Shown here piece after piece: positions 15,480 to 32,104 of a stretch of DNA of 64,000 nucleotides (the stretch's first letter is position 1; every line of letters begins with the position of its first letter). The stretch is from Candidatus Kuenenia stuttgartensis. Its GTDB lineage: Bacteria > Gemmatimonadota > Gemmatimonadetes > Gemmatimonadales > Gemmatimonadaceae. Both the position numbers and the translations under genes were made by a program. The notes below the pieces were generated by a model. That model had not been told where the DNA came from. It did no database searches and saw only the letters and a program-made list of their open reading frames with translations. The stretch lies in NCBI GenBank assembly GCA_943330235.2, contig CALQGY020000002.1:1-64000 (forward strand), read 5' to 3'.

Positions 15480-17867
15480 ATGCCATGGCGTACTGTGCGG
15501 CGGGCGTTGGCCCTGCTGGCAGTACTGACCGCCACACTGACGCCGTCGCTGCTGCCGGCGCAGTCGGTACGCGGTGTGGTTCGTCGTGGCACGACGGCGC
15601 TCCCGGGCGTCGTGGTTCAACTCCTTGACAGTGTTTCCGCGGTCGTCGCTCGCACCCTGAGCGACGACCGCGGTGCGTATCGGTTACTCGCGCCCCGCGC
15701 CGGCAGTTATCGGCTGGCCACGCGTCGCATTGGCTTCGTCCCGTCCGTGTCGGCACCGCTGCGGCTACGTGACGGGGAGACGTTGGAGCAGATGCTGCAG
15801 GTGGACGGCATTGCGGTGTCGCTGGATACCGTGCGGGTCAGCACGAACCGTCGCAGCTGTGCACTCGCCGACGGGTCCAACACCGCGAACGCGCTGGCCA
15901 ACGCGATGGTCGCGGCCACGTGGGAGCAGGCGCGCACCTCGCTCATGGCGACCGAAGCCAGTCTCGCCGGTCGCGCGATCAGCGCGGCGCTGCTCAACTA
16001 TCAGCGCACGCGCGATCGCGACGGCCGCATGACGCTGCAGGCGCTCACCATGACCGAGATGGACTCGGTGGCGCAGCCGTGGACCTCCGTCTCATGGAAT
16101 GAGTTGCAGAAGACGGGCTACATCGTGGCCGCGAAGGACACCACGGCCTTTCGCGCCCCAGGGCTGGATGTGCTGATCTCGAACGAGTTCGCTGCCGCGC
16201 ACTGTTTCCGCGTGGTCGCCACGACCGACAGCACCCAGATCGCGCTGGCCTTCGAGCCGGCCAAGAGCCGCCGGAATATCGCGGAGCTCAAGGGCACGCT
16301 GACGCTTGATCGACGAACGGCGGAGCTGCGCAGTCTCGACTTCGGCTACACGAACATCCAGGCGTTGCTCGATGAGGCCGGGGCCGGTGGTCGGATGGAG
16401 TTTGTCGCTCTGCGCGACGGCAGTTGGGCTATCGGGCGGTGGGTCATTCGCATGCCGGTGATCGGACAACGCACCGACGCCGGTCGAGCGCGCGTGCGCT
16501 TCACGCCCGTCGTCACCTCCACGGAAATCGGTGGTGGTGATCTGCTGGTGGCGCGACGCGGCACGGATACGCTCTGGTCGCGCGTGCTGCCGCCAGTCAC
16601 GGGTATCGTGACCGACTCGGCCAGTCGGCTGCCCGTCGTGGGAGCGCGCTTGCGATTGCGCGATACGGATCGGGCGACCGTGTCCGATACCGCCGGGCGC
16701 TTCGTGTTTACTGGGGTGCTCCCCGGTGATTACTCCATGTACGTCAACACGCCGTCGCTCGATTCCATCGGCGCGGTGACGGCGGTGCCGTTACTGGTGG
16801 CCGATACCGTCGCGACGCTGGCGGTCAAAGTGCCCAACGCGCGCCGCGTCCTACCGCTGGTCTGCGCACTCAGTGCGGACAGTCTGGCGCGGCGCCACGA
16901 CTTTGGTGTGGTGCGTGGTCTCGTGACGCTGGCGGAGGGGGCGACGCGCTCGGCGCCCATCGAGATCACGGTGCAGTGGACGGACAGCGCCACGCGCGCC
17001 GTCCGCACGCGGCGGACGCCTGCGGATGAGGCGCTCCGATTCCGCGTCTGCGATGTGCCACTCGGTACGACCCTCGTCGTGCAGGCCGCATCGGCCGGAC
17101 TGTCCTCCGGTTCGACGACAGTGCAGGTCACGCCCGCTTCCCCGTACGGACTGGCGGCGATCACCGTCGATGCACTGGCGCCCGATCAGGCCGTGATTGC
17201 GGGCACCGTGGTCGATGCAAGCGGTGCGCCGCTGGAGAACGTGACGGTGTCCATCACCGCGCTGGGGCTCACGACGGTGACCGATGCGACTGGCGCGTTC
17301 CGTCTCACGCGCGTCGCACCCGGACCGCAACAGCTTGCGGTGCGACGGGTCGGATTCGCGCCGCTCGATGTACCGGTGTCGGCGGTTGCCGGCCCGCCCA
17401 TGGGACCACGCATCACGCTGACGCGTGTGGCAACCCTCGAGGCGATGACCACCACCGCATCGCGTGCGTGGATGCGCGATTTCGAGGAGCATCGGCGCAC
17501 GGGGCTGGGGCACTTCTACACGCGGGAAGATCTCGCGAAGCAGGAGGCGCAGAAGTTGAGCGCGGTGCTGGTCATGACGCCCGGCGTGAAGATGGTGACC
17601 GATCGGCGGGGACGAAAATTCGTCTCGAGCAATCGCGGCCCGCGCTCACTGAGCGGCGGCGGCACGTGCTATGCGCAGGTGTTTCTCGATGCGAAGCCGA
17701 TCTACCTCGCACGCGCGGGGGAAGAGCCACCCAACATCGACGAGTTTCTCGTATCGCAGGCGGAAGCCATCGAATACTTCGCCAGCCCCGCGCAAACACC
17801 GGCGCCCTACAACGGGCTCAATTCGGTGTGCGGCGTGCTCGTGATTCACACGCGCCAGAGCAATTGA
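15480..17867 (+). CDS. Secreted carboxypeptidase-regulatory-like / TonB-plug-like protein without beta-barrel
   Basis: Signal peptide; repeated GxV..xxGxPLxxVxV modules; plug-like end CYAQVFLDAKPIY...AIEYFASPAQTPAPYNGLNSVCGVLVIHTR then stop. Confidence 0.8.
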   Translation: MPWRTVRRALALLAVLTATLTPSLLPAQSVRGVVRRGTTALPGVVVQLLDSVSAVVARTLSDDRGAYRLLAPRAGSYRLATRRIGFVPSVSAPLRLRDGETLEQMLQVDGIAVSLDTVRVSTNRRSCALADGSNTANALANAMVAATWEQARTSLMATEASLAGRAISAALLNYQRTRDRDGRMTLQALTMTEMDSVAQPWTSVSWNELQKTGYIVAAKDTTAFRAPGLDVLISNEFAAAHCFRVVATTDSTQIALAFEPAKSRRNIAELKGTLTLDRRTAELRSLDFGYTNIQALLDEAGAGGRMEFVALRDGSWAIGRWVIRMPVIGQRTDAGRARVRFTPVVTSTEIGGGDLLVARRGTDTLWSRVLPPVTGIVTDSASRLPVVGARLRLRDTDRATVSDTAGRFVFTGVLPGDYSMYVNTPSLDSIGAVTAVPLLVADTVATLAVKVPNARRVLPLVCALSADSLARRHDFGVVRGLVTLAEGATRSAPIEITVQWTDSATRAVRTRRTPADEALRFRVCDVPLGTTLVVQAASAGLSSGSTTVQVTPASPYGLAAITVDALAPDQAVIAGTVVDASGAPLENVTVSITALGLTTVTDATGAFRLTRVAPGPQQLAVRRVGFAPLDVPVSAVAGPPMGPRITLTRVATLEAMTTTASRAWMRDFEEHRRTGLGHFYTREDLAKQEAQKLSAVLVMTPGVKMVTDRRGRKFVSSNRGPRSLSGGGTCYAQVFLDAKPIYLARAGEEPPNIDEFLVSQAEAIEYFASPAQTPAPYNGLNSVCGVLVIHTRQSN

Positions 17868-17898: not shown

Positions 17899-18603
17899 CT
17901 AACCGGCGCGTACCGCCCGCAGGCGCGCCGCGTCCGCCTCGGTCAACGCGCGCTGCACGATGCGCGCCAGCAACAGCCCGAGCAGCACGGTGACGACAAT
18001 GCCGGCGCCGAACATCACGGGCGAGACGGTGGGCGAGCCATCCGCGCGCGGACCCGCGCCCGACGCGCTGCCGTAGGCGGCATACGTGATGACAATGGGG
18101 GCGAGGCCAAATGTGCCGATGACGTAGTCGCGCAGGCGCACGCGCGTCACACCCAGCGCGTAGTTGGACAGCACGAACGGCACAGCCGGCGACAGCCGCA
18201 GCAGGAAGACCAGCTTGAGCCCGTCCTCGCCGATCACGCGATCAATCGCAGACAGCGTCGGGTTGGCGGCAACGCGACGCTCCACCAACGACCGCGCGAA
18301 ATAGCGGCCAATGAGAAACGCGCTGGTGCCGCCCAGAACCGCGCCAGTGAGCGCCAGGATGGACCCCTTCACCACGCCAAACACCGCACCGCCGGCCATG
18401 ATGACCAGAAATGCCGGCAGCATCAGCACCACCGCCGCCACATACGCGCCTACGTAGACGATGGGCGCCCACACACCCAAGGTGTGCACCCACGCCGCAA
18501 ACCCGGGCAGCCATGGCGAGACCATGCGGCCAATGAGCAGGCCGAACACGATGGGGACGGCGATGCCCGCAGCACGGGAGATTCCCTTGAGATCGAAGCG
18601 CAT
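17899..18603 (-). CDS. VTT-domain (TVP38/TMEM64, DedA-like) membrane protein
   Basis: AGGAVFGVVKGSILALTGAVLGGTSAFLIGRYFAR; RLSPAVPFVLSNYALGVTRVRLRDYVIGT; start MRFDLKGI at 18603. Confidence 0.9.
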   Translation of the reverse strand: MRFDLKGISRAAGIAVPIVFGLLIGRMVSPWLPGFAAWVHTLGVWAPIVYVGAYVAAVVLMLPAFLVIMAGGAVFGVVKGSILALTGAVLGGTSAFLIGRYFARSLVERRVAANPTLSAIDRVIGEDGLKLVFLLRLSPAVPFVLSNYALGVTRVRLRDYVIGTFGLAPIVITYAAYGSASGAGPRADGSPTVSPVMFGAGIVVTVLLGLLLARIVQRALTEADAARLRAVRAG

Positions 18604-18741
18604 AGCGAAAGGTAGTGCGCACGCGCCGACGCGGCAGTTCACCCCTTGGGGGGCGACGAACTTCGCCGGGCGCGCCCTGCCGCTCTCGATGGTCGTTAGC
18701 TTTCGAGAGACGCAGTTCACCTCCCGAAAGCCCACGATCTC

Positions 18742-19554
18742 ATGCGCGGCTGGATCATCCCCATCGGCGGTAAGCTGCTGTCGTCCGCCATCCTCGAACG
18801 CTTTGTGACGTTGAGCGGCGGTACCGACGCGCGTATCGCGGTCATCCCGACCGCCTCGAACGAGCCCGATATGGGCACGTATTTCGAGCGGGTGTTTCAG
18901 CGCCAAGGCGTCGCGCAGGTCAAGGCGCTCAACTTCGATCGTCGCACCGACTGTGACGACAGCGACTGGCTCGCGTGGCTGAGCCAGGCCACTGGCGTCT
19001 TCCTGACCGGTGGCAACCAGTTGCGCCTGTCCACGATTCTGGGCGGGACCCCCGCCGCGACGCAGCTGCGGCACTTGCACGCGCATGGCGTGCCCATTGC
19101 CGGCACGAGCGCGGGGGCGGCCTTCCTCAGCGAGCATATGATCGCCTTTGGCGATGAGGGCAGCACACCGCGTGCGGGCATGGTGACGCTGTGCCCCGGT
19201 CTTGGCCTCACCAATCGTCTCATCATCGATCAGCATTTCCGCCAGCGGGATCGCATGGGACGCTTACTCACGGCGCTTTCGTACAACCCGTTCTGCATCG
19301 GGCTGGGCGTTGATGAGGATACGGCGGCTTTCATCGGTCCCGACGACACGCTCGACGTGTTGGGCTCGGGCGCGGTGACGGTCATCGATCCGTCTAAAAT
19401 CTCGTACTCGTCCGTCGCGGAGGCCGCGCCCGGTGACCCGATCACCATCGTGGGGGCCACGGTGCATCTGCTCGGTCCCGGCTCGTCGTTCAACTTGCAG
19501 ACGCGACGCGCTGAGCCGGCCGCACTCCACGAATCCTTCGTCTCCGGCGGATAA
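18742..19554 (+). CDS. cphB: Cyanophycinase
   Basis: GTSAGAAFLSEHMIAFG (nucleophile Ser), GLTNRLIIDQHFRQRDRMGRLL. Confidence 0.93.
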   Translation: MRGWIIPIGGKLLSSAILERFVTLSGGTDARIAVIPTASNEPDMGTYFERVFQRQGVAQVKALNFDRRTDCDDSDWLAWLSQATGVFLTGGNQLRLSTILGGTPAATQLRHLHAHGVPIAGTSAGAAFLSEHMIAFGDEGSTPRAGMVTLCPGLGLTNRLIIDQHFRQRDRMGRLLTALSYNPFCIGLGVDEDTAAFIGPDDTLDVLGSGAVTVIDPSKISYSSVAEAAPGDPITIVGATVHLLGPGSSFNLQTRRAEPAALHESFVSGG

Positions 19555-19560
19555 GCGCTT

Positions 19561-22428
19561 ATGAAGATCCTCGCTCGCTCCGTCTATGTCGGCCCCAGTC
19601 ACTACGCGCATTTCCCGGTGATTCGACTGGTGCTCGATCTGGGTGTGCTCGAAGCCTGGCCCACGCGTGCACTGGGCGACGGGTTCATTGACGCGCTCCT
19701 GCTCGCGCTTCCGGGACTCCGCGAGCATGGGTGCTCCTATGGCGTAGCGGGCGGCTTTGTGCGCCGCATGACGGAAGACGAGGGGACGTGGCTGGGGCAT
19801 GTCCTCGAGCATGTCGCGATCGAGTTGCAGAATGTTGCCGGCGTCAAAGTCACCTTTGGCAAGACGCGCGAGACGTCCACGCCCGGTGTCTATGATGTGG
19901 TCTTCGAGTACGAGCAGGACGACGTCGGTCTGGAAGCCGCCGCGGTGGCGCTGGATCTGTTGCATCACCTGCTCCCCGAGGCGCTGCGTCCCGAGGGCAC
20001 CGATCCGTCGTTCGATCTTGCTGAGCGCCGCGATGCCTTCATCCGCTATGCGCAGCGGCGCGCGCTGGGTCCGAGCACGGCCAGCATCGTGCACGCGGCG
20101 GAGTCGCGTGACATCCCGTGGATTCGCCTGAATGAGCAAAGCCTGATTCAGTTGGGATACGGCTGCCATCAGCAACGCATTCAAGCCACGATCACCGGGC
20201 GCACGTCGCACATCGCGGTGGAGCTGGCGTCGGATAAAGAGGAGACGAATCGCATTCTCGCGAATCTCGGTCTCCCGGTGCCCAAGCAGCGTCTCGTGCA
20301 GACCGCCGAACGCGCCGTCGCTGCGGCCGAGCGCATTGGGTATCCGGTGGTCACCAAGCCATACAACGGCAACCACGGGCGCGGCGTATCCGTCGCGTTA
20401 ACCTCGGCGGAGCAGGTCGTCGCCGGCTTCGACCGCGCGAAGGATATTTCGCGCAGCGTCATCGTGGAGAGCTATATCACCGGTCACGATCATCGTATGC
20501 TCGTGGTCAACGGTGAGCTGGTGGCGGTAAGCAAGCGGGAGCCGGGCAAGGTCACGGGCGACGGCGTGCACACCATTGAGCAGCTCGTGGCCATCGTGAA
20601 CACCGATCCGCGTCGCGGCATCGGTCACGAGAAGGTGCTCACGCAGCTCGAGCTTGATGAACAGGCGACGGGGCTGCTCGTGAAGATGGGCTACAGCGCG
20701 AGCACCGTGCCCGCTGCGGGCGAAGACGTGTATCTGCGGCTGACGGCCAATTTGTCGACGGGCGGCACCGCCGCGGATATGACCGATGTGGTGCACCCCG
20801 ACAACACCGAGATGGCGGTGCGCGCCATTCAGGCGATCGGCCTCGATGTGGGGGGCGTGGATTTCCTCTCGCCGGACATCACGCAATCGTACAAAGACGT
20901 GGGCGGGGCGATCTGCGAAGTGAACGCGGCGCCGGGGTTCCGCATGCACATGGCCCCCAGCGAGGGGCGGCCGCGTGATGTCGCGGGTAAAGTCATCGAC
21001 ATGCTCTTCCCGCGGAACGCGCCCAGTACCATTCCGATTGCGGCGCTGACCGGCACGAACGGCAAGACCACCACCGCGCGCCTGCTGGCGCACATCCACA
21101 AGCTTGCGGGCAAGCGCGTGGGACTCACCACCACCGACGGCGTCTACATCGACGGGCAGCGTACGGTCGAAGGGGACATGACCGGTCCTACGTCGGCGCG
21201 CATTGTGCTAAGCGATCCGGCGGTGGAAGTCGCGGTACTGGAAACTGCGCGCGGCGGACTGTTGCGCGCAGGCATGGCCATGCGCCACGTCGATGTTGGC
21301 GCGGTGCTCAACATCCAGCCCGATCATCTCGGGCAGAAGGGCATCGACACGCTTGAGCAGTTGGCGGAAGTCAAACGCACGGTCGTGGAGATCGCGACCG
21401 ACACCGCCGTGTTGAATGCCGACGATCCGTTAACGCTGCGCATGGCCGCGTACACGAAGGCCAAGCATGTCTGCTACGTGACCATGGACCCCGCGCATGA
21501 TCTGGTGCGCGAGCATATTCGGGCCGGCGGGCGCGCCATCGCGCTGGAGGCGGGCGTGAATGGCCAGATGATTACCATCTACGATCGCGGCGCGCACATC
21601 CCGTTGCTGTGGACGCATCTGATCCCGGCCACGCTCGAGGGACGCGCGACGTTCAATGTGCAGAATGCGATGTTCGCGGCGGCGATGGCATTTGCCATGG
21701 GCGTCCGCCTGGAGGATATCCGTCACGGGTTGCGCACCTTCGACACCACGTTCTTCCAGGCACCGGGACGCTTGAATGTCTACGACGAGCATCCCTTCAA
21801 GGTGCTCTTCGACTACGGACACAACGCGCATGCGGTGGGGGCCCTCTGTCAGTTGGTGAATCGCATGACGCCGGCCGGCCGTCGCCTGTGCGTGCTCTCT
21901 GCCCCCGGTGATCGTCGCGACGAGGACATCCGCGCCATTGCGCGCGTGGCGGCCGCGGCGGGCTTTGATCACTACATCTGTCGTCGCGACGACGGACTGC
22001 GTGGACGCGGTGCCGAGGAAGTGCCGCGCCTCTTACTCGATGAACTCGGCGCTGCGGGAATCCCCGATGCGCGGATGAGTCTCATCGCGGATGAGCAGCA
22101 GGCCATCGATGCGGCCCTGCGCATGGCGACTACGGGCGACTTGGTATTGATCTTCGCCGACGCGCTCGCGCGCGGCTGGAAGCAGATCATCAACTTCCGT
22201 CCCGATTCGTCCGCCTCAATCATTCCGGCACCACGGGCCGCGCGTGCCGTACCGCGACAGGCGGTGCATGAGGACGCACCGGCCGACGACACATCGCCCG
22301 CCAAGGCGTCCACATCGGTGATGGGCGAGTTCGCCGTCGTCACCGCGCGGTGGAGTGCTACACCAGAGGAGGTCGTCCTGATGCGCGATGCGCGCGGCGT
22401 CATCGTGGCACCGGAGTCGAGTGACTGA
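19561..22428 (+). CDS. cphA: Cyanophycin synthetase
   Basis: N-domain, ATP-grasp (ELASDKEETNRILANLGLPVPKQ...VVTKPYNGNHGRGVSV) and Mur-ligase domain (GTNGKTTTARLLAHI, VLETARGGLLRAG). Confidence 0.96.
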   Translation: MKILARSVYVGPSHYAHFPVIRLVLDLGVLEAWPTRALGDGFIDALLLALPGLREHGCSYGVAGGFVRRMTEDEGTWLGHVLEHVAIELQNVAGVKVTFGKTRETSTPGVYDVVFEYEQDDVGLEAAAVALDLLHHLLPEALRPEGTDPSFDLAERRDAFIRYAQRRALGPSTASIVHAAESRDIPWIRLNEQSLIQLGYGCHQQRIQATITGRTSHIAVELASDKEETNRILANLGLPVPKQRLVQTAERAVAAAERIGYPVVTKPYNGNHGRGVSVALTSAEQVVAGFDRAKDISRSVIVESYITGHDHRMLVVNGELVAVSKREPGKVTGDGVHTIEQLVAIVNTDPRRGIGHEKVLTQLELDEQATGLLVKMGYSASTVPAAGEDVYLRLTANLSTGGTAADMTDVVHPDNTEMAVRAIQAIGLDVGGVDFLSPDITQSYKDVGGAICEVNAAPGFRMHMAPSEGRPRDVAGKVIDMLFPRNAPSTIPIAALTGTNGKTTTARLLAHIHKLAGKRVGLTTTDGVYIDGQRTVEGDMTGPTSARIVLSDPAVEVAVLETARGGLLRAGMAMRHVDVGAVLNIQPDHLGQKGIDTLEQLAEVKRTVVEIATDTAVLNADDPLTLRMAAYTKAKHVCYVTMDPAHDLVREHIRAGGRAIALEAGVNGQMITIYDRGAHIPLLWTHLIPATLEGRATFNVQNAMFAAAMAFAMGVRLEDIRHGLRTFDTTFFQAPGRLNVYDEHPFKVLFDYGHNAHAVGALCQLVNRMTPAGRRLCVLSAPGDRRDEDIRAIARVAAAAGFDHYICRRDDGLRGRGAEEVPRLLLDELGAAGIPDARMSLIADEQQAIDAALRMATTGDLVLIFADALARGWKQIINFRPDSSASIIPAPRAARAVPRQAVHEDAPADDTSPAKASTSVMGEFAVVTARWSATPEEVVLMRDARGVIVAPESSD

Positions 22429-22429
22429 C

Positions 22430-24187
22430 GTGAACGAACGCTCTCCGGCGATTCACGATTCGCGTCGTCTCTTCGGCCCGAATCAATTTGCGCTCCACGC
22501 CGGCGCGGTACTTGAGGTGACGTGCGTCGACGCACGCGGTCGCGACACCGTCGGCCACTGGGCCCAACAGGTGGCTCGGTTCGCGGCCGCACTCGGTTGG
22601 TTTGACGCCACGGTGCACACCCACGTCTCGCGCGAGCGCGCGATGCTGTTTATCACGGCGCCCATCGATGGCTTGATGACTGCGACCGAGGTGACGGAAC
22701 TCGCGTGGGTCGCGGCAGAGGCGGCGGTGGATGGTCAGCCGACGCCTGATGTGATCGCGATGCTGCGCGAAGGCTATACGCGTGAGCGACAGTCGATGCC
22801 GCATCTCGTCGGCATTCAGGCCTATGCCCGTCAGCGCGGCCTCGTGTTCTCGCTGGACGGTGACGCCTGCTCGGTGGGCAGTGGTACCGGCGTCCGCACG
22901 GTGACGCACGGTGACGTCCCCGTCGACGACGTCTCGGAGTTCGACGAGGCTTGGGAGTCCGCACACGACGTGCCCATCGCGCTGGTGACCGGATCGAACG
23001 GCAAGACCACCACCACGCGTCTGGTGGCCGCGATGTGGCGCGCCAGCGGTCGGTGTACCGGCTGGAATTGTAGCGACGGCGTCTGGGTGGACCATGATCA
23101 GCTAGAGGACGGCGACTATACCGGCCCGACGGGCGCTCGGCGCGTCATCGGTGATGTGCGCGTGCAAGCGGCCGTTCTGGAGACGGCGCGCGGCGGGATG
23201 CTGCGTCGCGGACTCGCCGTGAATTGGGCCGATGGCGCCATCATCACCAACATCTCCGCCGATCACTTCGGCGAGTACGGCATTGAGACGCTCGCGGATC
23301 TGGCGCAGGCGAAGCGCTTGGTGGCGCGGGCGCTTCGCCCCGGGGCGCCGCTCGTGCTGAACGCGGATGATGAGACGCTACGAGCGCTCGCCCAACAGCT
23401 CACCGTGCCGATCGTGTGGTTCAGCGCGCAGGATCATCCGCTGGCGCGACTGACCGACGACTCCTCGCCGGCAGCACCCGCGATGGCGTCCATTGTGCGC
23501 GACGGCGCGCTGCTGCTCCATCGGGACGGCGCGTGGCACCATCTCGGTCTCGTGCAGGACATGCCATTGACCTTGCAAGGCGCCGCCGTGCATAACATCG
23601 CCAACCTCGCGGGCGCTGCGCTTCTGGCCAGCGTGGTCGGCGTACCGCTGGACGCGATTCGTGCCGTGGTTACGACCTTTGGCGCGGCGACCACCGACAA
23701 TCCCGGTCGCTTGATGGTGCGTGCGTGCGGTGGACTCACCGTGGTGATGGACTACGCGCACAATCCCGACGGGCTCGCCTCCCTGAGTCGGACGGCGGCG
23801 TCGCTGCGCGGTTCGCGGCGTCTCTTGCTGTTGGGGCAGGCGGGTGATCGTGATGACGCGCAACTCGCTGCGTTGGCGACCACAGCGTGGCAGAGCCAGT
23901 CGTTCGATCGCGTGATCATCAAGGAGCTGCCCAGCATGCGCCGAGGACGTGCTCCGGGTGTGGTGTCCGCCGTCTTGCGCGCCGCACTGCTGGCCGCGGG
24001 CGCACCGGATGCGGCCATCGCGATGGCCGACGATGAATGCGAAGGCGTGCGCGCGGCGCTCGCGTGGGGGCGCGCCGGTGATGTGCTGGTGCTGGGCGTG
24101 CATGCTGAACGCGCGCGCGTGCTCGCGCTCATCGATGCGCTGGTCGCCACCGAGTGGACCGCCGGCGACCCCGTACCGGCTTGTTGA
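22430..24187 (+). CDS. CphA-like Mur-ligase protein lacking ATP-grasp
   Basis: GSNGKTTTTRLVAAM, YTGPTGARRV, VLETARGGMLRRGLAVNW, DYAHNPDGLASL; no ATP-grasp motif; GTG start at about 22421/22430. Confidence 0.88.
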   Translation: MNERSPAIHDSRRLFGPNQFALHAGAVLEVTCVDARGRDTVGHWAQQVARFAAALGWFDATVHTHVSRERAMLFITAPIDGLMTATEVTELAWVAAEAAVDGQPTPDVIAMLREGYTRERQSMPHLVGIQAYARQRGLVFSLDGDACSVGSGTGVRTVTHGDVPVDDVSEFDEAWESAHDVPIALVTGSNGKTTTTRLVAAMWRASGRCTGWNCSDGVWVDHDQLEDGDYTGPTGARRVIGDVRVQAAVLETARGGMLRRGLAVNWADGAIITNISADHFGEYGIETLADLAQAKRLVARALRPGAPLVLNADDETLRALAQQLTVPIVWFSAQDHPLARLTDDSSPAAPAMASIVRDGALLLHRDGAWHHLGLVQDMPLTLQGAAVHNIANLAGAALLASVVGVPLDAIRAVVTTFGAATTDNPGRLMVRACGGLTVVMDYAHNPDGLASLSRTAASLRGSRRLLLLGQAGDRDDAQLAALATTAWQSQSFDRVIIKELPSMRRGRAPGVVSAVLRAALLAAGAPDAAIAMADDECEGVRAALAWGRAGDVLVLGVHAERARVLALIDALVATEWTAGDPVPAC

Positions 24188-24694
24188 TTACCGCACGGTG
24201 AGCATCTTCACCATGCCCTTCTCCGTGTGCATGCGCCCGTCGCGCGCGGGGATGAGGCAGGCCAAGATGTAACGGCCGGGTTTCATACGCAGCGTCAGAA
24301 ACGTTTCGGACTTGGGTGCGATGGTGGTGGTCTGTCCCATGCCGATCATCCAGGCGGGAATCATCCCCTGTGCGTGATACTGATCGAGAAACTCCCGTAG
24401 CGAATGATTGGCCGGAAGTTCGAAGACCGCGAGCGCATGCAGGTCGCTCCCGGCGTTCACCAGATTGAACGCCACGATCCCTGCCGGCGCCACGTCCGGC
24501 GACGTGAACGCGTAGTCGATGCCGAGGACGCGGACGTACGCCACATCCTGCGCGTCGGCCGATACGGGGCGCACCGCGGCGGGTTTGGCGGGTGATGGCG
24601 GCGCCGTTTTCTGCGCGGTGAGTTGACAGGCGGGTACGGCGACGGCGAGCAGCACGGCGCGATACCATACCCGCGAGAGCGATGGACACTTCAT
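24188..24694 (-). CDS. Secreted cupredoxin-like hypothetical protein
   Basis: Signal-like N-terminus MKCPSLSRVWYRAVLLAVAVPACQ; plastocyanin-like beta pattern (GIVAFNLVNAGSDLHALAVFELP...MKPGRYILACLIPARDGRMH). Confidence 0.6.
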   Translation of the reverse strand: MKCPSLSRVWYRAVLLAVAVPACQLTAQKTAPPSPAKPAAVRPVSADAQDVAYVRVLGIDYAFTSPDVAPAGIVAFNLVNAGSDLHALAVFELPANHSLREFLDQYHAQGMIPAWMIGMGQTTTIAPKSETFLTLRMKPGRYILACLIPARDGRMHTEKGMVKMLTVR

Positions 24695-24774
24695 GACGAG
24701 CCTCCGCGAACGGTGGGCCAACGAGGACCCCTCTACGGTGCGGCGAGCCGGAGCACGCGTCAGTCGGGCAATAA

Positions 24775-24800
24775 CCCACAGACGTGTAGGCGTCTGTGGG
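24775..24800. promoter_or_regulatory. Hairpin (10-bp perfect stem) in the leader of the SLBB gene
   Basis: cccacagacg-tgtagg-cgtctgtggg. Confidence 0.75.
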
Positions 24801-24959
24801 CCTCTGCACCGCAGCGCGTCGGCTCGGCGGGGCTGTCCGCCACGGTCACAGGACGGGTCGCCGTGCTGTCACGGTCCGTACGGGCAGTGTTACACCACGG
24901 GAAGGTCGTGCGTCTTTCGACGACAGCTACGCCGCGACCTTTTCCGTTCGCCACGACCC

Positions 24960-27464
24960 GTGCATCGCTCAACGACAAGACTCCTCGCCGCCGCGGCACT
25001 CGCCGCGGGGCTGACCGGTTCGACGCTCGCGGCCCAGTCGCTGCCGAGTACCATGCCTTCGCCACAGCAGGCCGAGGCCCTATTGCGCGCGCGGCCGGAG
25101 CTGGCGGTGCAGCTGCGGCAGCGACTCCAGACCAGCGGATTGTCGCCCGTACAGGTGCGCGCCCGCCTCAAGGCCGCGGGGTACCCCGAGTCGCTCCTCG
25201 ATCAAGTGATGGGCGCCTCGACGTCAGACGGTGCGCCGCGAGTCGGGGCGGACTCCCTGATTGGCGCGCTGCGCTCGCTCGGGGTGGTCGATTCCGCCGA
25301 CGCCTCGGTCCTGCGGCGGATGACGCTCTCGGCGGCGGGCGCGGCGAGCGGCGCGTCCCGCGAGGGGATGGGGGACGCCGCTGCGGCACTCATCGCCGCG
25401 GCGGCTCGCGGTCCCGCCGAAACAGTGTATGACCGCGAGGGGATGACCCTCTTCGGTCTGGATCTCTTCTCGCAGCCCACCACGTTGTTCGACGCGAACG
25501 CCGGTGGGCCGGTCGATCCGTCGTATCGTCTGGGCCCGGGCGATCAGCTCGTGCTGATTCTCACCGGCGACGTGGAGCAAGCGTACACGCTGGACGTGAC
25601 GCGCGAAGGGTTCATCGTCGTCCCCGTCGTGGGGCAGATCCCCGTGGCCTCGCTGTCGCTGGCCGATCTGGACCGCGTGCTGCGCAAGCGCTTGGGGACG
25701 ATCTATTCGGGGCTGGGGAGCACCACGCGATTCTCCGTCAGCGTGGCGCGTCTGCGGTCCAATCAAGTGTTTGTCGTGGGTGACGTAAAGCAGCCCGGCA
25801 GCTACCGCATCTCCAGCGCCGGCACGGCGCTGACGGCGCTGTATGCGGCGGGCGGTCCGTCCGATCGCGGGTCACTGCGACGCATCGAAGTGCGTCGCCG
25901 CGGCGTGGCGACGCAGACGTTCGATATCTACAACTATCTGCTGCGCGGCGACGCGTCCGGCGATGTGCGGCTGGAGAACGGCGATGTGCTGTTCGTGCCC
26001 ACGCACGGTGCGCATGTACGCGTGCGCGGAGGCGTACTGCGTCCCGCCACGTACGAACTGCGCGCGGGGGAAACGCTGGACGATCTGGTGAAGGCGGCCG
26101 GCGGCTTCACGGACGACGCGTCCCAGCGCACCGTGCGCATCGAGCGCATCGTGCCGCCCGCGCAGCGGACCGCCGAAGGCAGCGACCGCATGGTGATGGA
26201 CGTGGCGTTGCCCAACGCCGGGGGCGCCGCCGCGCTGGCAGCCGTGCGTGTGGAAGCCGGTGACGTGGTGGATGTGCCGCGCGTGGCCAACCGCGTGCGC
26301 GGTCGTATCACCGTGCGGGGCAACGTGTGGCAGCCGGGCTCGCAGGGTATCCTGCCGAACGAGTCCTTGACCCAGGCCTTGACGGGGGCGGGTGGCCTCA
26401 AGCCCGACAGCTACCTCGGACGCGTCATTATCTCGCGCCTTAGGTCCGACTCGACGCGCGAACAGTTACGCGCGACACTACGCGACCTTTCAGGCGCCAC
26501 TCTCGAGCCACTGATCCTTCGCGAAGACGATGAGATTACCGTGTTTTCGCTGACCGAGTTCCGCGCGCCGCGTTTCGTAGCCGTGGCCGGTGCCGTCGTG
26601 CGACCGGGGCAGTACCCGTATCGCGAGGGGATGAGCCTCCGCGATCTCGTGCTCCAGGCCGGGGGCCTTCATCCCGCTGCCGCGCTCCGGGATGCGGAAA
26701 TCGCGCGGTTGCCGCGCACGCCTGCGGAAGGGGTTATCGCCAGCACCTTTCGGGCACCCCTCGACTCCACGTACCTCGTGACGCACGCCGCCGCGGCGGT
26801 TGGCAATGAGGTGACGCTGGAGCCCTACGACAACGTCCTCATCTTCCGCCAGCCCGATTGGCAGCTCCAGCAGACGGTGGAGCTGACGGGCGAGGTGCAC
26901 TATCCCGGTGTGTATTCATTGCGGTCGAAGACGGAACGGCTCTCTGATGTCATCGAACGTGCGGGTGGGCTGACCGCTTCGGCGTTCGCCGGCGGGATCA
27001 CCTTTGCGCGGACCGAGGGCGGTCTGGGGCGCGTGGGTGTCGATCTCCCCAGCGTCCTGAAGAATCCCAAGGATCGGGATAATCTCCTGCTCCTCGCGGG
27101 CGACTCCATCCATGTGCCGCGCTTCAACGCACTGGTGACCATTGCCGGTGCGGTGAACTCCCCCATGGCGGTGCCCTACGAGCCCGGGAAGTCGCTGTTG
27201 CACTACATCCGGGCGGCTGGCGGGGCGACGGTTGAGGGCGATGTGGATCGCGTCTGGGTGCAGCAGGCCAACGGCAAGGTCGAGAGCCGCCACAAGACGG
27301 CCAAGCTCTTTACGACGTCGCCTACTCCGGAACCCGGCAGCAAGGTCTTCGTACCCACCCGCGACACCACCGCCAAGCGCGATTGGGCACAGCTGCTGGC
27401 CACGACAACCCAAGTGCTGGGCAGTCTCGTCACGATTCTGGTGGTCTTGAAGCGGACCAACTAA
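24960..27464 (+). CDS. Polysaccharide export protein, multiple SLBB domains (Wza-like)
   Basis: YRLGPGDQLVLILTG...GFIVVPVVGQIPVASLSL; repeated VxGxVxxPGxYxL modules; GTG start at 24960 preferred. Confidence 0.9.
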   Translation: MHRSTTRLLAAAALAAGLTGSTLAAQSLPSTMPSPQQAEALLRARPELAVQLRQRLQTSGLSPVQVRARLKAAGYPESLLDQVMGASTSDGAPRVGADSLIGALRSLGVVDSADASVLRRMTLSAAGAASGASREGMGDAAAALIAAAARGPAETVYDREGMTLFGLDLFSQPTTLFDANAGGPVDPSYRLGPGDQLVLILTGDVEQAYTLDVTREGFIVVPVVGQIPVASLSLADLDRVLRKRLGTIYSGLGSTTRFSVSVARLRSNQVFVVGDVKQPGSYRISSAGTALTALYAAGGPSDRGSLRRIEVRRRGVATQTFDIYNYLLRGDASGDVRLENGDVLFVPTHGAHVRVRGGVLRPATYELRAGETLDDLVKAAGGFTDDASQRTVRIERIVPPAQRTAEGSDRMVMDVALPNAGGAAALAAVRVEAGDVVDVPRVANRVRGRITVRGNVWQPGSQGILPNESLTQALTGAGGLKPDSYLGRVIISRLRSDSTREQLRATLRDLSGATLEPLILREDDEITVFSLTEFRAPRFVAVAGAVVRPGQYPYREGMSLRDLVLQAGGLHPAAALRDAEIARLPRTPAEGVIASTFRAPLDSTYLVTHAAAAVGNEVTLEPYDNVLIFRQPDWQLQQTVELTGEVHYPGVYSLRSKTERLSDVIERAGGLTASAFAGGITFARTEGGLGRVGVDLPSVLKNPKDRDNLLLLAGDSIHVPRFNALVTIAGAVNSPMAVPYEPGKSLLHYIRAAGGATVEGDVDRVWVQQANGKVESRHKTAKLFTTSPTPEPGSKVFVPTRDTTAKRDWAQLLATTTQVLGSLVTILVVLKRTN

Positions 27465-27475
27465 GCGCCACCATG

Positions 27476-27498
27476 CCGAGGGGCGACTCGCCCCTCGG
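27476..27498. promoter_or_regulatory. Hairpin directly after the SLBB stop
   Basis: ccgaggggcga-c-tcgcccctcgg, 11-nt perfect complementary arms. Confidence 0.75.
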
Positions 27499-27655
27499 AG
27501 CGATGGCCCGCCATCTGCGTGACGGCCACCCGTTACGCTGCCGTACGGCACCATTTCAGTCGCGGTCAAGTTGGGACGCGGTGCTGTCGATATTCCCATG
27601 GGTATGCCATCGCGATGTCGCGATTCCCCAATGCACTCCGTCCGCAGATGGCCCG

Positions 27656-29578
27656 ATGCTGACTCCTATTGATAGCTCGGCGACACGTCGCCAGCCGTGG
27701 TTGACGAATCGCCAACTCCTGATTCTTGACGTCACGCTCCTCTTCTGCGCGTGGGCGCTGGCGTGGACGCTGCGTTTCGAAGGACTGAGTTGGTTGACCA
27801 CGTGGCGCGGGGCGGCCACGAACCACGCCTTGGTGTCGATTCCCATCTGGCTGGCCATCTCTGCCGCCTTCGGGATGTACCGCCGCGAATGGACCACCGC
27901 CTCCGTCGAAGAGCTGGAGTCCCTGCTGGTAACGATGGTGGTCGCATCGGCGGCGAATGTCGTCGTCGGCGCGTTTCTGTTACCGCTGACCGGCCTCTCG
28001 CATGCGCGCCTGCCACTGTCGGTGCTGTCGTCGCAGACCATGTGGAGTCTCGCCTGTCTCGCCCTGCCGCGTGTCGGCGCGCGCATTGCACGCTGGCATT
28101 CCGCCCGCACCCGCGTGCGGGGGCAGGGAACTCGCGTCCTGATTCTCGGTGCCGGCAGCGGTGGACGATCCACCGCGCGCGACATGATGGAGCAGCCGCA
28201 ACTTGGCTTCGTGCCCGTCGGCTTTCTCGATGACGATGCGTCGCTGTACAAGCGTCGCGTCGCCGGACTGCCGGTGTTCGGTCCGCTCTCGACGCTTGCG
28301 GATCGGTTGGCCAAAGAAGATATCCGCCATGTGATTCTGGCCATCAGTAATCTTCCGGGACCGCAGGTGCGCGACATCGTGCGCGTGTGCAAGGAGCACG
28401 GCGTCGATACGCGCACCATGCCCGGTCTGGCCGAAATCATGTCGGGGCGCGTGGGTGTGAATCAGCTGCGCCCGGTGGAAATTCAGGATCTCCTGCGCCG
28501 CGCGCCGGTGCAGACCGATACCCGCGCCGTGCATCAGATCGCCGGCGATCACACGGTGCTCATCACCGGCGCCGGCGGATCCATCGGTGGCGAGATGTGC
28601 CGACAGATCGCGCGCTTCTCGCCGCGACGCCTGGTCTTGCTCGGGCATGGTGAGAACTCCATCTACGAAATCCACCACGAGCTGTCGACGCACTTTCCCA
28701 ACGTGCCGCTGTCGACGGTCATTGCCGACATCCGCGACGAGGAGCGCATCGATGCGGTCATGGCGCGCTTCCGTCCCAACGTGGTGTTCCATGCGGCTGC
28801 GCACAAACATGTGCCGCTGATGGAAGAGAATCTGGTGGAAGCCATTACGAACAATGTGAAGGGCACGCGCGTGATGGTCGAGACGGCCGCGCGCTATCAT
28901 GTCCCGCATTTCGTCATGGTATCCAGCGATAAAGCGGTGAATCCCACCAGCATCATGGGGGCCACCAAGCGCATCGCCGAGTTGATCGTGCAGCGCACCG
29001 CGCAGAGCTCGGGACTGAACTACGTCTGCGTCCGCTTCGGCAATGTGCTGGGTAGTCGCGGCAGCGTGGTGCCCATGTTCCTCCGCCAGATCCGCGCGGG
29101 CGGGCCGGTGATGATCACGCATCCGGACATGACTCGGTATTTCATGACCATCCCCGAGGCCGTGCAGTTGGTGCTGCAGGCCGCCGTACTGGGTACGGGT
29201 GGTGAGGTCTTCGTGCTGGATATGGGCGAGCCCGTCAAGATTGTGGATCTCGCATCCGACCTCATTCATCTGTCGGGGCTCCGTCTTGGCACCGACATCG
29301 AGATCAAGTTCTCCGGCATCCGCCCGGGCGAGAAGCTCTTCGAGGAGCTGTCACTCGACAGCGAACACATGAAGCCCACGGGGCACGGTAAGGTGATGTG
29401 CGCCTTGCTGGCCACACCGGGCGTCGGTCTCTTCACCAACGTGGATGCCTTGGTGGCTGCGGCGCACAAACGCGAGCACGACGAACAGTTGCGCAAGCGC
29501 ATCGGTGAACTCGTGCCGGAATACATGGCGCTCGGCACCTCACACGTGGTCAAGCGCGAGCTCACGCTCGTCGCGTAA
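27656..29578 (+). CDS. Nucleoside-diphosphate-sugar epimerase/dehydratase (CapD/PglF/WbpM-like)
   Basis: N-terminal TMs; VLITGAGGSIGGEMCRQI; AAHKHVPLME; VNPTSIMGATKRIAE; start MLTPIDSS preferred. Confidence 0.93.
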   Translation: MLTPIDSSATRRQPWLTNRQLLILDVTLLFCAWALAWTLRFEGLSWLTTWRGAATNHALVSIPIWLAISAAFGMYRREWTTASVEELESLLVTMVVASAANVVVGAFLLPLTGLSHARLPLSVLSSQTMWSLACLALPRVGARIARWHSARTRVRGQGTRVLILGAGSGGRSTARDMMEQPQLGFVPVGFLDDDASLYKRRVAGLPVFGPLSTLADRLAKEDIRHVILAISNLPGPQVRDIVRVCKEHGVDTRTMPGLAEIMSGRVGVNQLRPVEIQDLLRRAPVQTDTRAVHQIAGDHTVLITGAGGSIGGEMCRQIARFSPRRLVLLGHGENSIYEIHHELSTHFPNVPLSTVIADIRDEERIDAVMARFRPNVVFHAAAHKHVPLMEENLVEAITNNVKGTRVMVETAARYHVPHFVMVSSDKAVNPTSIMGATKRIAELIVQRTAQSSGLNYVCVRFGNVLGSRGSVVPMFLRQIRAGGPVMITHPDMTRYFMTIPEAVQLVLQAAVLGTGGEVFVLDMGEPVKIVDLASDLIHLSGLRLGTDIEIKFSGIRPGEKLFEELSLDSEHMKPTGHGKVMCALLATPGVGLFTNVDALVAAAHKREHDEQLRKRIGELVPEYMALGTSHVVKRELTLVA

Positions 29579-29653: not shown

Positions 29654-32104
29654 CTAGTCGCGGCGACGGGTGTGGATGACCAGCACCCCGCACGGCGAAT
29701 CGAGCTTGGCGTAGCGTGAGGGCGTCTGCGACGGGCTCGCGTACCACTCCATCGCCTCGATCTGGTCGGGGGCGAGGCTGTTGATGTCGTAGGGTTCGGT
29801 GGGCCGACCTTGGTTCATGATCTGCCCGTCAACGTAGACCTGCGCATAGCACCCCGCCACGAGCCCGCGAATGCGCTCCAACTCGCTTGGCTTGTAGATG
29901 GACGCCGACTCCTGACCGATGGAGGCGGCAATCGGCACCACGTAGCGTTTGGACATCGGCCACGCACCGCTGCGCCCGCGCACCACGCCGGCGCCCGGCA
30001 GCATCGAGAGCACGTCGCCCAACTTGCGGCCGATATGGCGATCCAGTTCCGCACGATCGAGAAAACTGCCCAGCCCGACGCGGCGATTTTCCTCGAAATC
30101 GCGCAGCCGCACGTCGAGGCGCGACGAGATGACGGCGACCGAGTCCAGGATCGTCGCGGGGCGCAGGATAATGCGACGATCCTCCTCGTCATTGGCCGCG
30201 AAGGTCAGCGTCGTCGCGAGCACGCCGTAGCCGACGCGCCGCACGAGGATGCTCTGTGTGCCGGCCGGAATGTCGGCCAGTCGGAACTCACCGCGGGCGT
30301 TGCTTCGTGTGGTCAGCGCCAGCGCCGGCACGGCAATCTCGGCGTCGGCCAACGGTCGTCCGGACGAATCGGCCACCACCACGCCCACAAAGGCCGCCAC
30401 GGCGGCGCGGTCCTGCTCCACGATCAACGCGGTGGTCGCGAACCGCTGCTCGGACGAGAGGCGAACCGTCGCGCTCTGCGCACGCCCTCGCAACGGCAGC
30501 GCGCGAATGGTCAGTGGCAGTTCCGTGGGCACACCGCAGAGGCGAAACGCCCCGGACGAATCGGTCTTGGTCTCTAGGCGACGTCCTTGCGACTGGAGGC
30601 TCGCCGACGTGGCGCCGGCATTGCTGAATTCCGTCCAGTCGGCCGCCACGCGCACGCCGGTGAGCGTGCTGGTATCACGCGCCTCGCGCACGGTGCCAAG
30701 AATGGCGCCCTTCCCCCGTCCGGCGATGCCGTCCAACACGCTGCCGCACAACGATGCGGAGAGTTGGCGCGCGGTGGGGACGCGGAGCTTCAGGCGCGCC
30801 ATGCCGTCGGCGACCATGACGGTGCTTTGGCTCGACGCGCGAATGGAATCCAGCGACGGGGTACGCACGGCGATGGCGTACTCACCCGGGAGGACGTCGG
30901 CCAGCGTGAAGCTCCCGTTGTCGGCGGTCACCGTGTGCACATCGGTGCCCACCAGCGCCACCGTGGCCCGTGCGATGGCGTCTCCCGTTGTGGAATCGAG
31001 GACGACACCGGCGACGGACAAGGCCGGGCGCTTGAAGAGCGTATCCGCGCCGCGACGGAGCACGATCAGTTCACCGCCCGTCGCATTCACCGCCGACACC
31101 CGCACGCGTGTCGCGCGCGGCGAGTCTTTGACCAACTGCGGCATCCGGATCTCCCACGACGAGATCACGATGGAGCCATCGGGCAGGCGCGTGAATCCCA
31201 TCGAGCCGCCCGCCGCGAAATCGCGAATGGCCGTGGCACCGGCGGTGAAGGAAAAATCCAGACGCCGCAGCTCGGCGGTGCCGCGTGCGAGCCAGACGGT
31301 GCCACGAATCTCTGAGAGGGCACGGCGCTCGGGCGTCGGTTCGAAGGACACGCCGATTTCGGTGGTATCCGCCGCGGCCACGAGCCGCACGCAATGGTCC
31401 TCGAGAAACGGCGACGAGACCAGCACGTCCAGCCCCGGCGCGTAAAACGTCGTCCAGTCGGCGGCGTCCGTCTGCGTATAGCCGCGTCGCCGCAGCGTGT
31501 CCGGATGCAACGACTTCCACGGCTGCGTGACGTAGTCCGTGCGCACGCGCGCGCCCTGCGAGCGGATCTTGCGCCCGTCGGGCTCCATCGTGCGCTCGAT
31601 CTGCATGGTGGTGGCCGTCAGCCCCCGCCCCGATGAGGTCAGCGAGGTCGCGGCAATGGACGTCATGGCCTGATCCCACGCCGATAAAATGGCGCCGGAC
31701 TCCGCCGTGCTCTGCCGGCCGCAGGCGCTGCGTTCGACGACGCGGATGGCCTCGAGCGCCACGCGGACGCCGTCCAGCACCAACCGTTCGCTACTGACGG
31801 TGCCGTCGGCCAGCACCTTGGGTGCGGTCACCGAGGGTTGAAAGCCGATGCGCAGCGTGCGGAGGCGGTACGTGCCCGCGTGCGGCGCGGCGACGCGATA
31901 CTCGCCGCGATCATTGGTGAGCGCGCGCGCCACGGCCGTCTGCGCCGAATCCAGCAGCACCACCACCACTCCGGAGACCGGATGATCGGTGGCGTCCACC
32001 ACGGTGCCCCGCACGACCTGCGCGGAGGCCATGGCCGATACGCCGCACACGGCGAGAGCCATCGAGGCGAGCGTGAACAGCCGGCGGCGGTACGTCATAA
32101 GCAT
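29654..32104 (-). CDS. Secreted carboxypeptidase-regulatory-like / TonB-plug-like protein (paralogue of 15480..17867)
   Basis: Same architecture and same end: CYAQVYVDGQIMNQG...IEAMEWYASPSQTPSRYAKLDSPCGVLVIHTRR. Confidence 0.8.
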   Translation of the reverse strand: MLMTYRRRLFTLASMALAVCGVSAMASAQVVRGTVVDATDHPVSGVVVVLLDSAQTAVARALTNDRGEYRVAAPHAGTYRLRTLRIGFQPSVTAPKVLADGTVSSERLVLDGVRVALEAIRVVERSACGRQSTAESGAILSAWDQAMTSIAATSLTSSGRGLTATTMQIERTMEPDGRKIRSQGARVRTDYVTQPWKSLHPDTLRRRGYTQTDAADWTTFYAPGLDVLVSSPFLEDHCVRLVAAADTTEIGVSFEPTPERRALSEIRGTVWLARGTAELRRLDFSFTAGATAIRDFAAGGSMGFTRLPDGSIVISSWEIRMPQLVKDSPRATRVRVSAVNATGGELIVLRRGADTLFKRPALSVAGVVLDSTTGDAIARATVALVGTDVHTVTADNGSFTLADVLPGEYAIAVRTPSLDSIRASSQSTVMVADGMARLKLRVPTARQLSASLCGSVLDGIAGRGKGAILGTVREARDTSTLTGVRVAADWTEFSNAGATSASLQSQGRRLETKTDSSGAFRLCGVPTELPLTIRALPLRGRAQSATVRLSSEQRFATTALIVEQDRAAVAAFVGVVVADSSGRPLADAEIAVPALALTTRSNARGEFRLADIPAGTQSILVRRVGYGVLATTLTFAANDEEDRRIILRPATILDSVAVISSRLDVRLRDFEENRRVGLGSFLDRAELDRHIGRKLGDVLSMLPGAGVVRGRSGAWPMSKRYVVPIAASIGQESASIYKPSELERIRGLVAGCYAQVYVDGQIMNQGRPTEPYDINSLAPDQIEAMEWYASPSQTPSRYAKLDSPCGVLVIHTRRRD

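Follow-up and report, generated by a model that had tools for sequence, protein, structure and literature searches.

A Mur-type ligase without an ATP-grasp domain is encoded beside cyanophycin synthetases that carry an aspartate-ended tail

Cyanophycin is a nitrogen-storage polymer built by cyanophycin synthetase (CphA), and the initiation of its chains is a live question in the field. A cph operon in a Gemmatimonadota genome of 4.0 Mb (contig C2), with Gemmatimonadaceae as its closest relatives in sequence, raises the question of what a second CphA-like protein, here called PAR, does beside a complete CphA. The relatives of PAR are entered in RefSeq as "Mur ligase family protein", a generic label that, beside cphA, hides a conserved subsystem.

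The window (the whole stretch of 64,000 nucleotides analyzed) contains the genes for cyanophycinase, CphA and PAR in tandem on the forward strand, as the initial annotation had described, with intergenic gaps of 6 nt and then 1 nt, and the first two products score above the cut-offs of their equivalogs (Table 1). The best start for PAR is the GTG at 22430; an in-frame ATG at 22388 falls within cphA. Pfam matches for the N-domain, ATP-grasp and Mur regions were obtained for the CphA of the window, and its three sites are intact: C-x21-HxxEH in the N domain, KPYNGNHGRG in the G domain and GTNGKT/DH/DYGHN in the M domain. In the surrounding DNA, the reading frame of a VTT-domain membrane protein (17899-19236, reverse strand) remains open antisense into the cyanophycinase gene, its true start lying probably at ~18600. 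On either side of the region a large carboxypeptidase-regulatory-domain protein is encoded (15480-17867, forward strand; 29654-32104, reverse strand), the two being built alike, and the genes downstream of the cph operon include Polysacc_synt_2 and those for polysaccharide export (SLBB, Poly_export) (24693-29578, forward strand).

Table 1 Positions in the window of the cph genes and of the segments of their CphA and PAR products.
Feature	Position	Strand	Evidence or remark
Cyanophycinase, 270 aa	18742..19554	+	TIGR02069 242.7 bits (cut-off 126.6), Peptidase_S51
CphA1 cyanophycin synthetase, 955 aa	19561..22428	+	TIGR02068 1126.6 bits (cut-off 850)
CphA linker, residues 880-937, low-complexity, unalignable	22198..22371	+	Length 38-83 aa in the family; pLDDT <50 (poor model)
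CphA C-terminal peptide, residues 938-955, VVLMRDARGVIVAPESSD, Asp last	22372..22425	+	58/58 PAR-paired CphA end in Asp
PAR (585 aa, GTG start), free-standing N+Mur ligase	22430..24187	+	Pfam, TIGR02068, AF2, Foldseek
PAR residues 1-178, predicted eroded CphA N domain and pre-ATP-grasp stretch (RRLFGPN ... ARQRGLVF), no HxxEH	22430..22963	+	Profile comparison, AF2 fold, Foldseek
PAR Mur_ligase_M, residues 186-398	22985..23623	+	Pfam E 2.5e-19; P-loop GSNGKT (K192), S215, E251, D278/H279, K295
PAR Mur_ligase_C, residues 426-555	23705..24094	+	Pfam E 6.6e-12; R427, D441, H444
PAR putative specificity loop KELPSMRRGR, residues 498-507	23921..23950	+	Alignments; corresponds to RRDDGLRGR of CphA and to the DNPR loop of MurE

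Pfam recognizes only Mur_ligase_M (70.5 bits; gathering score 24) and Mur_ligase_C (46.8 bits; gathering score 28.4) in PAR, which bears out the first description of the protein as a Mur ligase devoid of ATP-grasp. No ATP-grasp match was obtained with Pfam up to E 1, and the AF2 model contains no such fold, including in the first 200 residues, where its presence had been raised as a possible objection. TIGR02068 scores 327.1 bits, far under its cut-off of 850, and covers profile positions 475-849 only. The Mur portion is 36% identical to that of the neighboring CphA, and its closest structures are those of CphA1. A murein ligase of the MurC-MurF series is not indicated, the best equivalog being the MurE model with 91 bits vs a cut-off of 476. 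The AF2 model of PAR (11 sequences; pLDDT 89.5, pTM 0.90) aligns in Foldseek along the whole of TeCphA1 (TMq 0.81) and SuCphA1 (TMq 0.78), and with MurE (1e8c) over the Mur part only (TMq 0.55). The proposed CphA N-domain-like start of PAR is thus strongly supported by fold but weakly by sequence: PF18921 was not matched in PAR, and profile comparison yielded two short collinear segments (P 0.03 and 0.007). HxxEH is absent from the PAR sequence and from the family alignment. According to the model, PAR consists of the N and M domains of CphA, arranged as in CphA but with no G domain, and the first ~178 residues are an eroded N domain followed by the pre-ATP-grasp stretch, the ATP-grasp core being missing. 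The N and M domains of CphA1 hold between them a cyanophycin analogue whose terminal residue is unmodified (PMC9427784), and for this reason PAR would retain the requirements of the side-chain site. The eroded N domain may bind polymer less well, a point against the explanation favored below.

The catalytic machinery of the M domain appears to be complete. Comparison of 33 PAR with ~60 CphA Mur domains identified 44 positions that are near-invariant in both sets. Residues K499, D585/H586, E558, R731 and H748 of Su/TeCphA1 either impair M activity when mutated or bind ATP or Mg (PMC9427784, PMC9262961). Their counterparts in PAR (K192, D278/H279, E251, R427 and H444, respectively) are near-invariant among the 33 PAR, so the loss of key Mur-ligase residues, a second possible objection, is not observed. 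Judged from these sequences, PAR is probably an active ligase. The chief difference from CphA is a loop, RRDDxLRGR or KEDxDxRGR in CphA and KE/KD-[MLI]-x-x-[YMF]-x-RGR in PAR, where it is one residue longer. The loop is unlike that of CphA in all PAR, with a few members straying from the pattern (for example AENPKYLRGR). Profile alignment maps it to the DNPR loop of MurE, which holds the incoming amino acid. Because the changed loop lies at this position, the amino acid joined by PAR is likely other than Arg; what the loop is taken to bind depends on its alignment with MurE, and this dependence also counts against the explanation favored below. Intact Mur catalytic residues combined with a changed specificity loop fit the earlier suggestion of a dedicated side-chain ligase.

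The architecture of PAR is not a chance product, as ~30 distinct loci have it in common together with the operon position and the residues described above. The order cyanophycinase-cphA-PAR is kept in Gemmatimonadota, Pseudomonadota and Actinomycetota; carriers include Ruegeria, Shinella, Gammaproteobacteria (Dokdonella and Arenimonas among them), an Intrasporangium MAG and many Gemmatimonadota, and a nearly identical operon occurs in the 'Roseateles' XES5 record, which is marked UNVERIFIED_ORG. Matches of either kind were found in 56 of 249 Gemmatimonadota genomes; ~38 of the 56 contain PAR, in nearly every case together with cphA, and the exceptions are situated at contig ends or are broken genes. 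Nearly all of the examined PAR operons have cyanophycinase immediately upstream of cphA. The PAR and CphA distances are correlated (Mantel r 0.70, 0/5000 permutations), which indicates that the two genes move as a pair, between phyla as well. With mean distances of 0.90 for PAR vs 0.40 for CphA, PAR evolves about twice as fast. A gene for the β-aspartyl peptidase iadA (TIGR01975, 378-400 bits) adjoins cyanophycinase in many PAR operons in either orientation, as in L009:1028-2347, L013:1080-2339, L017:1041-2282 and L008:1034-2203 (reverse strand). No iadA was found in the window, and no conserved third partner other than iadA recurred beside the PAR operons.

In two trees, PAR falls outside all sampled CphA Mur domains, its exact place being less sure owing to the distant MurE root and long branches. 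The monophyly of PAR received SH-aLRT support of 95 in one tree and 70/92 in the other. A clade uniting PAR with the partner CphA was rejected (p-AU 0.005 in the MurE-rooted tree). PAR is thus not a recent duplicate of the neighboring CphA, nor is it the shortened copy that the term truncation in the initial annotation had implied.

What that annotation overlooked is how the partner CphA ends: in a C-terminal tail whose last residue is invariably Asp. Past the Mur domain, every PAR-paired CphA continues with a disordered, unalignable linker of 38-83 aa and a conserved C-terminal peptide of the pattern [VIL]RDxRGVx[LI]xxE.. (also RDxRGVxLxRE..), the last residue of which is Asp. All 58 distinct tails of PAR-paired CphA terminate in Asp, vs 2 of 47 untailed Mur-ligase ORFs (mostly CphA), and the tail was never seen in a CphA without PAR. 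The terminal Asp is encoded by GAC and by GAT, all three stop codons occur, and the spacing between RGV and the terminus ranges from 7 to 11 residues (8 in 35/44). Because the codons, stops and spacing vary, it is the chain end itself that is kept. The residues immediately preceding the Asp are variable. The tail is retained where PAR starts far downstream (L127, L116) or is non-adjacent, on another contig (L112). The sister group of all tailed CphA consists of the CphA of genomes G237 and G311, which display the same cyanophycinase-cphA order with neither tail nor PAR. The tree places the appearance of tail and PAR together on one branch. A functional link between the two is probable.

The full-length PAR-paired CphA retain the N motif in 32/32 cases and the G P-loop in 31/32, as determined by pattern; with the CphA sites intact in these operons, the possibility that PAR replaces a dead CphA site was rejected. 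The CphA1 of Acinetobacter baylyi places in or next to the tailed clade, and no tail could be aligned in the PDB CphA1 of A. baylyi and Tatumella morbirosei, the chain ends of which were read in part. An AF2 model of the whole CphA (9 sequences) was poor (pLDDT 51.7), with two low-confidence short strands at 939-950.

The biochemistry of CphA1 suggests how tail and ligase may cooperate. The M site requires a chain with an unmodified C-terminal Asp (PMC9427784), the minimal cyanophycin primer is (β-Asp-Arg)-Asp (PMC9262961), and chains are known to start from primers that the N-domain peptidase site cuts from existing polymer (PMC9262961). We propose that PAR is a free-standing, catalytically competent ligase of the Mur type that joins amino acids; it retains N and M, the two parts of CphA1 that enclose the side-chain-ligation site, without the backbone-lengthening ATP-grasp. 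As in the CphA1 M domain, PAR would use ATP to activate the side-chain carboxylate of a C-terminal Asp and would join an amino acid there. The terminal Asp of the CphA tail would be the most likely acceptor, because the partner always offers a flexible linker and a free Asp end. Docked on the RDxRGV peptide, PAR would charge the final Asp of the tail to form a first β-Asp-X unit, and this unit may serve as a built-in primer from which CphA starts or as an anchor for the polymer.

Tail charging is the simplest reading because it covers an M site that requires Asp, a free-standing PAR and an Asp-ended partner. PAR may charge the tail Asp, although we stop short of calling this step probable. Taken as a whole, with an active PAR charging the tail for priming or anchoring, the explanation is tentative and somewhat less than an even prospect. 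Two further observations weigh against it: the tailed CphA keeps the primer-making site of its N domain, so that the need for an additional priming step is not obvious, and the link between tail and PAR reflects one event kept since, not many independent ones. A bolder version would be a self-primed, enzyme-anchored cyanophycin, in which the synthetase brings its own Asp acceptor, the G-less ligase charges it, and the polymer starts on, and perhaps stays attached to, the synthetase, by analogy to glycogenin for glycogen; this version is rather unlikely. The initial annotation had left a choice among a modified polymer, a helper subunit and a different polymer, and the CphA tail turns that choice into a testable acceptor hypothesis.

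Alternatively, PAR may be a side-chain ligase that acts on the growing polymer and adds a second kind of amino acid, generating a mixed or modified cyanophycin, with the tail only docking PAR beside the polymer. The fold and catalytic residues of a CphA M domain coupled with a changed specificity loop, the conserved operon, and the small variation of the RGV-to-end spacing, reminiscent of a docking peptide, are all consistent with such a role. However, docking alone leaves the last Asp, invariant in 58/58 tails behind variable residues, unexplained, and the cyanophycinase and, often, the iadA product of the same operon look ordinary. A polymer-modifying PAR that is docked by the tail is a weaker reading than tail charging, and we regard it as possible but unlikely.

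PAR could also be a non-catalytic or regulatory subunit, a scaffold or a controller of length or granules, bound to CphA through the tail. The strict pairing with tailed CphA, the twofold faster evolution of PAR (0.90 vs 0.40) and the loss of its N-domain peptidase motif would suit a subunit of this kind. The ATP, Mg and catalytic residues are, however, near-invariant in 33 diverse PAR, and a pure scaffold needs none of them, which makes this role improbable. Another proposal is that PAR forms small β-aspartyl or other peptides from free amino acids, the tail serving CphA itself, for example in autoinhibition or turnover. Mur ligases act on many small acceptors, and G-less N+Mur proteins do occur away from cphA, in G239 and on Deinococcus deserti plasmid 3. 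Yet the PAR gene almost always follows a tailed cphA directly and is missing wherever the tail is lacking, and small-peptide synthesis is very improbable. That the tail is a by-product of a DNA constraint at the junction of cphA and PAR, such as a ribosome-binding site or an overlap, is hardly credible: the genes nearly overlap and the tail ends are purine-rich, but the tail is kept in L127, L116 and L112, where PAR starts at a distance or lies on another contig, synonymous codons vary, and RDxRGV precedes the stop by ~30-45 nt.

Among CphA relatives, the ATP-grasp half has been lost independently on several occasions, besides PAR at least three times more, in G-less proteins of separate origin from Legionella adelaidensis, Deinococcus deserti plasmid 3 and Gemmatimonadota G239/G275. 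The L. adelaidensis protein, the sister of a Chryseobacterium CphA, is a plasmid-encoded N+Mur protein of 622 aa (L059:6677-8545); its HxxEH N domain is intact, ATP-grasp is absent, and its gene is followed by those for cyanophycinase and isoaspartyl peptidase, with no cphA within that 15-kb stretch. The sister of the D. deserti protein is found in D. taeanensis and has a degenerate ATP-grasp; in the Deinococcus relatives at L060:5699-8215 and L062:3023-5197 the ATP-grasp P-loop is degenerate in one and the ATP-grasp gone in its sister. A second Gemmatimonadota CphA-like lineage, with the loop KEH..YRRGR, comprises L137 and L138 (G239, G275) and L139-L141 (G222, G277, G280). Its ATP-grasp is intact in L140 and L141, degenerate in L139 and missing in G239/G275, and the lineage is not linked to a canonical cphA. 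Since the full-length relatives L139-L141 already possess KEH..YRRGR, the loop change probably preceded the loss of the G domain. This order supports, from few sequences, a repeated route to side-chain ligases of putatively new specificity. Wenzhouxiangella encodes further CphA relatives of 834-839 aa (L023, L025), of which L023 has neither an ATP-grasp nor an N-domain Pfam match; no cyanophycinase was found near either gene in the stretch examined.

A search of the openly readable literature returned no description of PAR, its G-less architecture or the CphA tail. The family is already in databases under a generic name. The pairing of PAR with the tail hints at an undescribed way to start or modify the polymer. 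PAR and the Asp-ended tail may represent a second, protein-borne answer to the problem of chain start, or else a way of making cyanophycin that bears a new side chain.

Among known systems, the proteins of the L. adelaidensis plasmid, D. deserti plasmid 3 and Gemmatimonadota G239/G275 resemble PAR in combining N and Mur regions without ATP-grasp; unlike PAR, they arose separately inside CphA clades and are not paired with a tailed CphA. PAR shares the Mur_ligase_M/C fold and, presumably, the mechanism of MurE and other Mur ligases, but it has a CphA-type N domain in place of the UDP-MurNAc-binding domain, and the murein ligase genes of the host genome are located on contig C27. Like cyanobacterial CphA2, PAR is related to CphA, has a single ligase site left and lacks the N-domain peptidase motif (PMC9262961). 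The reduction is the reverse one, as first proposed: CphA2 still has its ATP-grasp, but its Mur P-loop and lid are gone (PMC9427784). The closest counterpart is CphA1 (TIGR02068), with which PAR shares an M domain of 36% identity, the same catalytic residues and an N-domain fold in the same arrangement. In contrast to CphA1, ~80% of which carry the peptidase motif C-x19-HxxEH, PAR has no HxxEH and no ATP-grasp G domain, possesses a changed loop, scores 327 against a cut-off of 850, and would work beside a complete CphA1.
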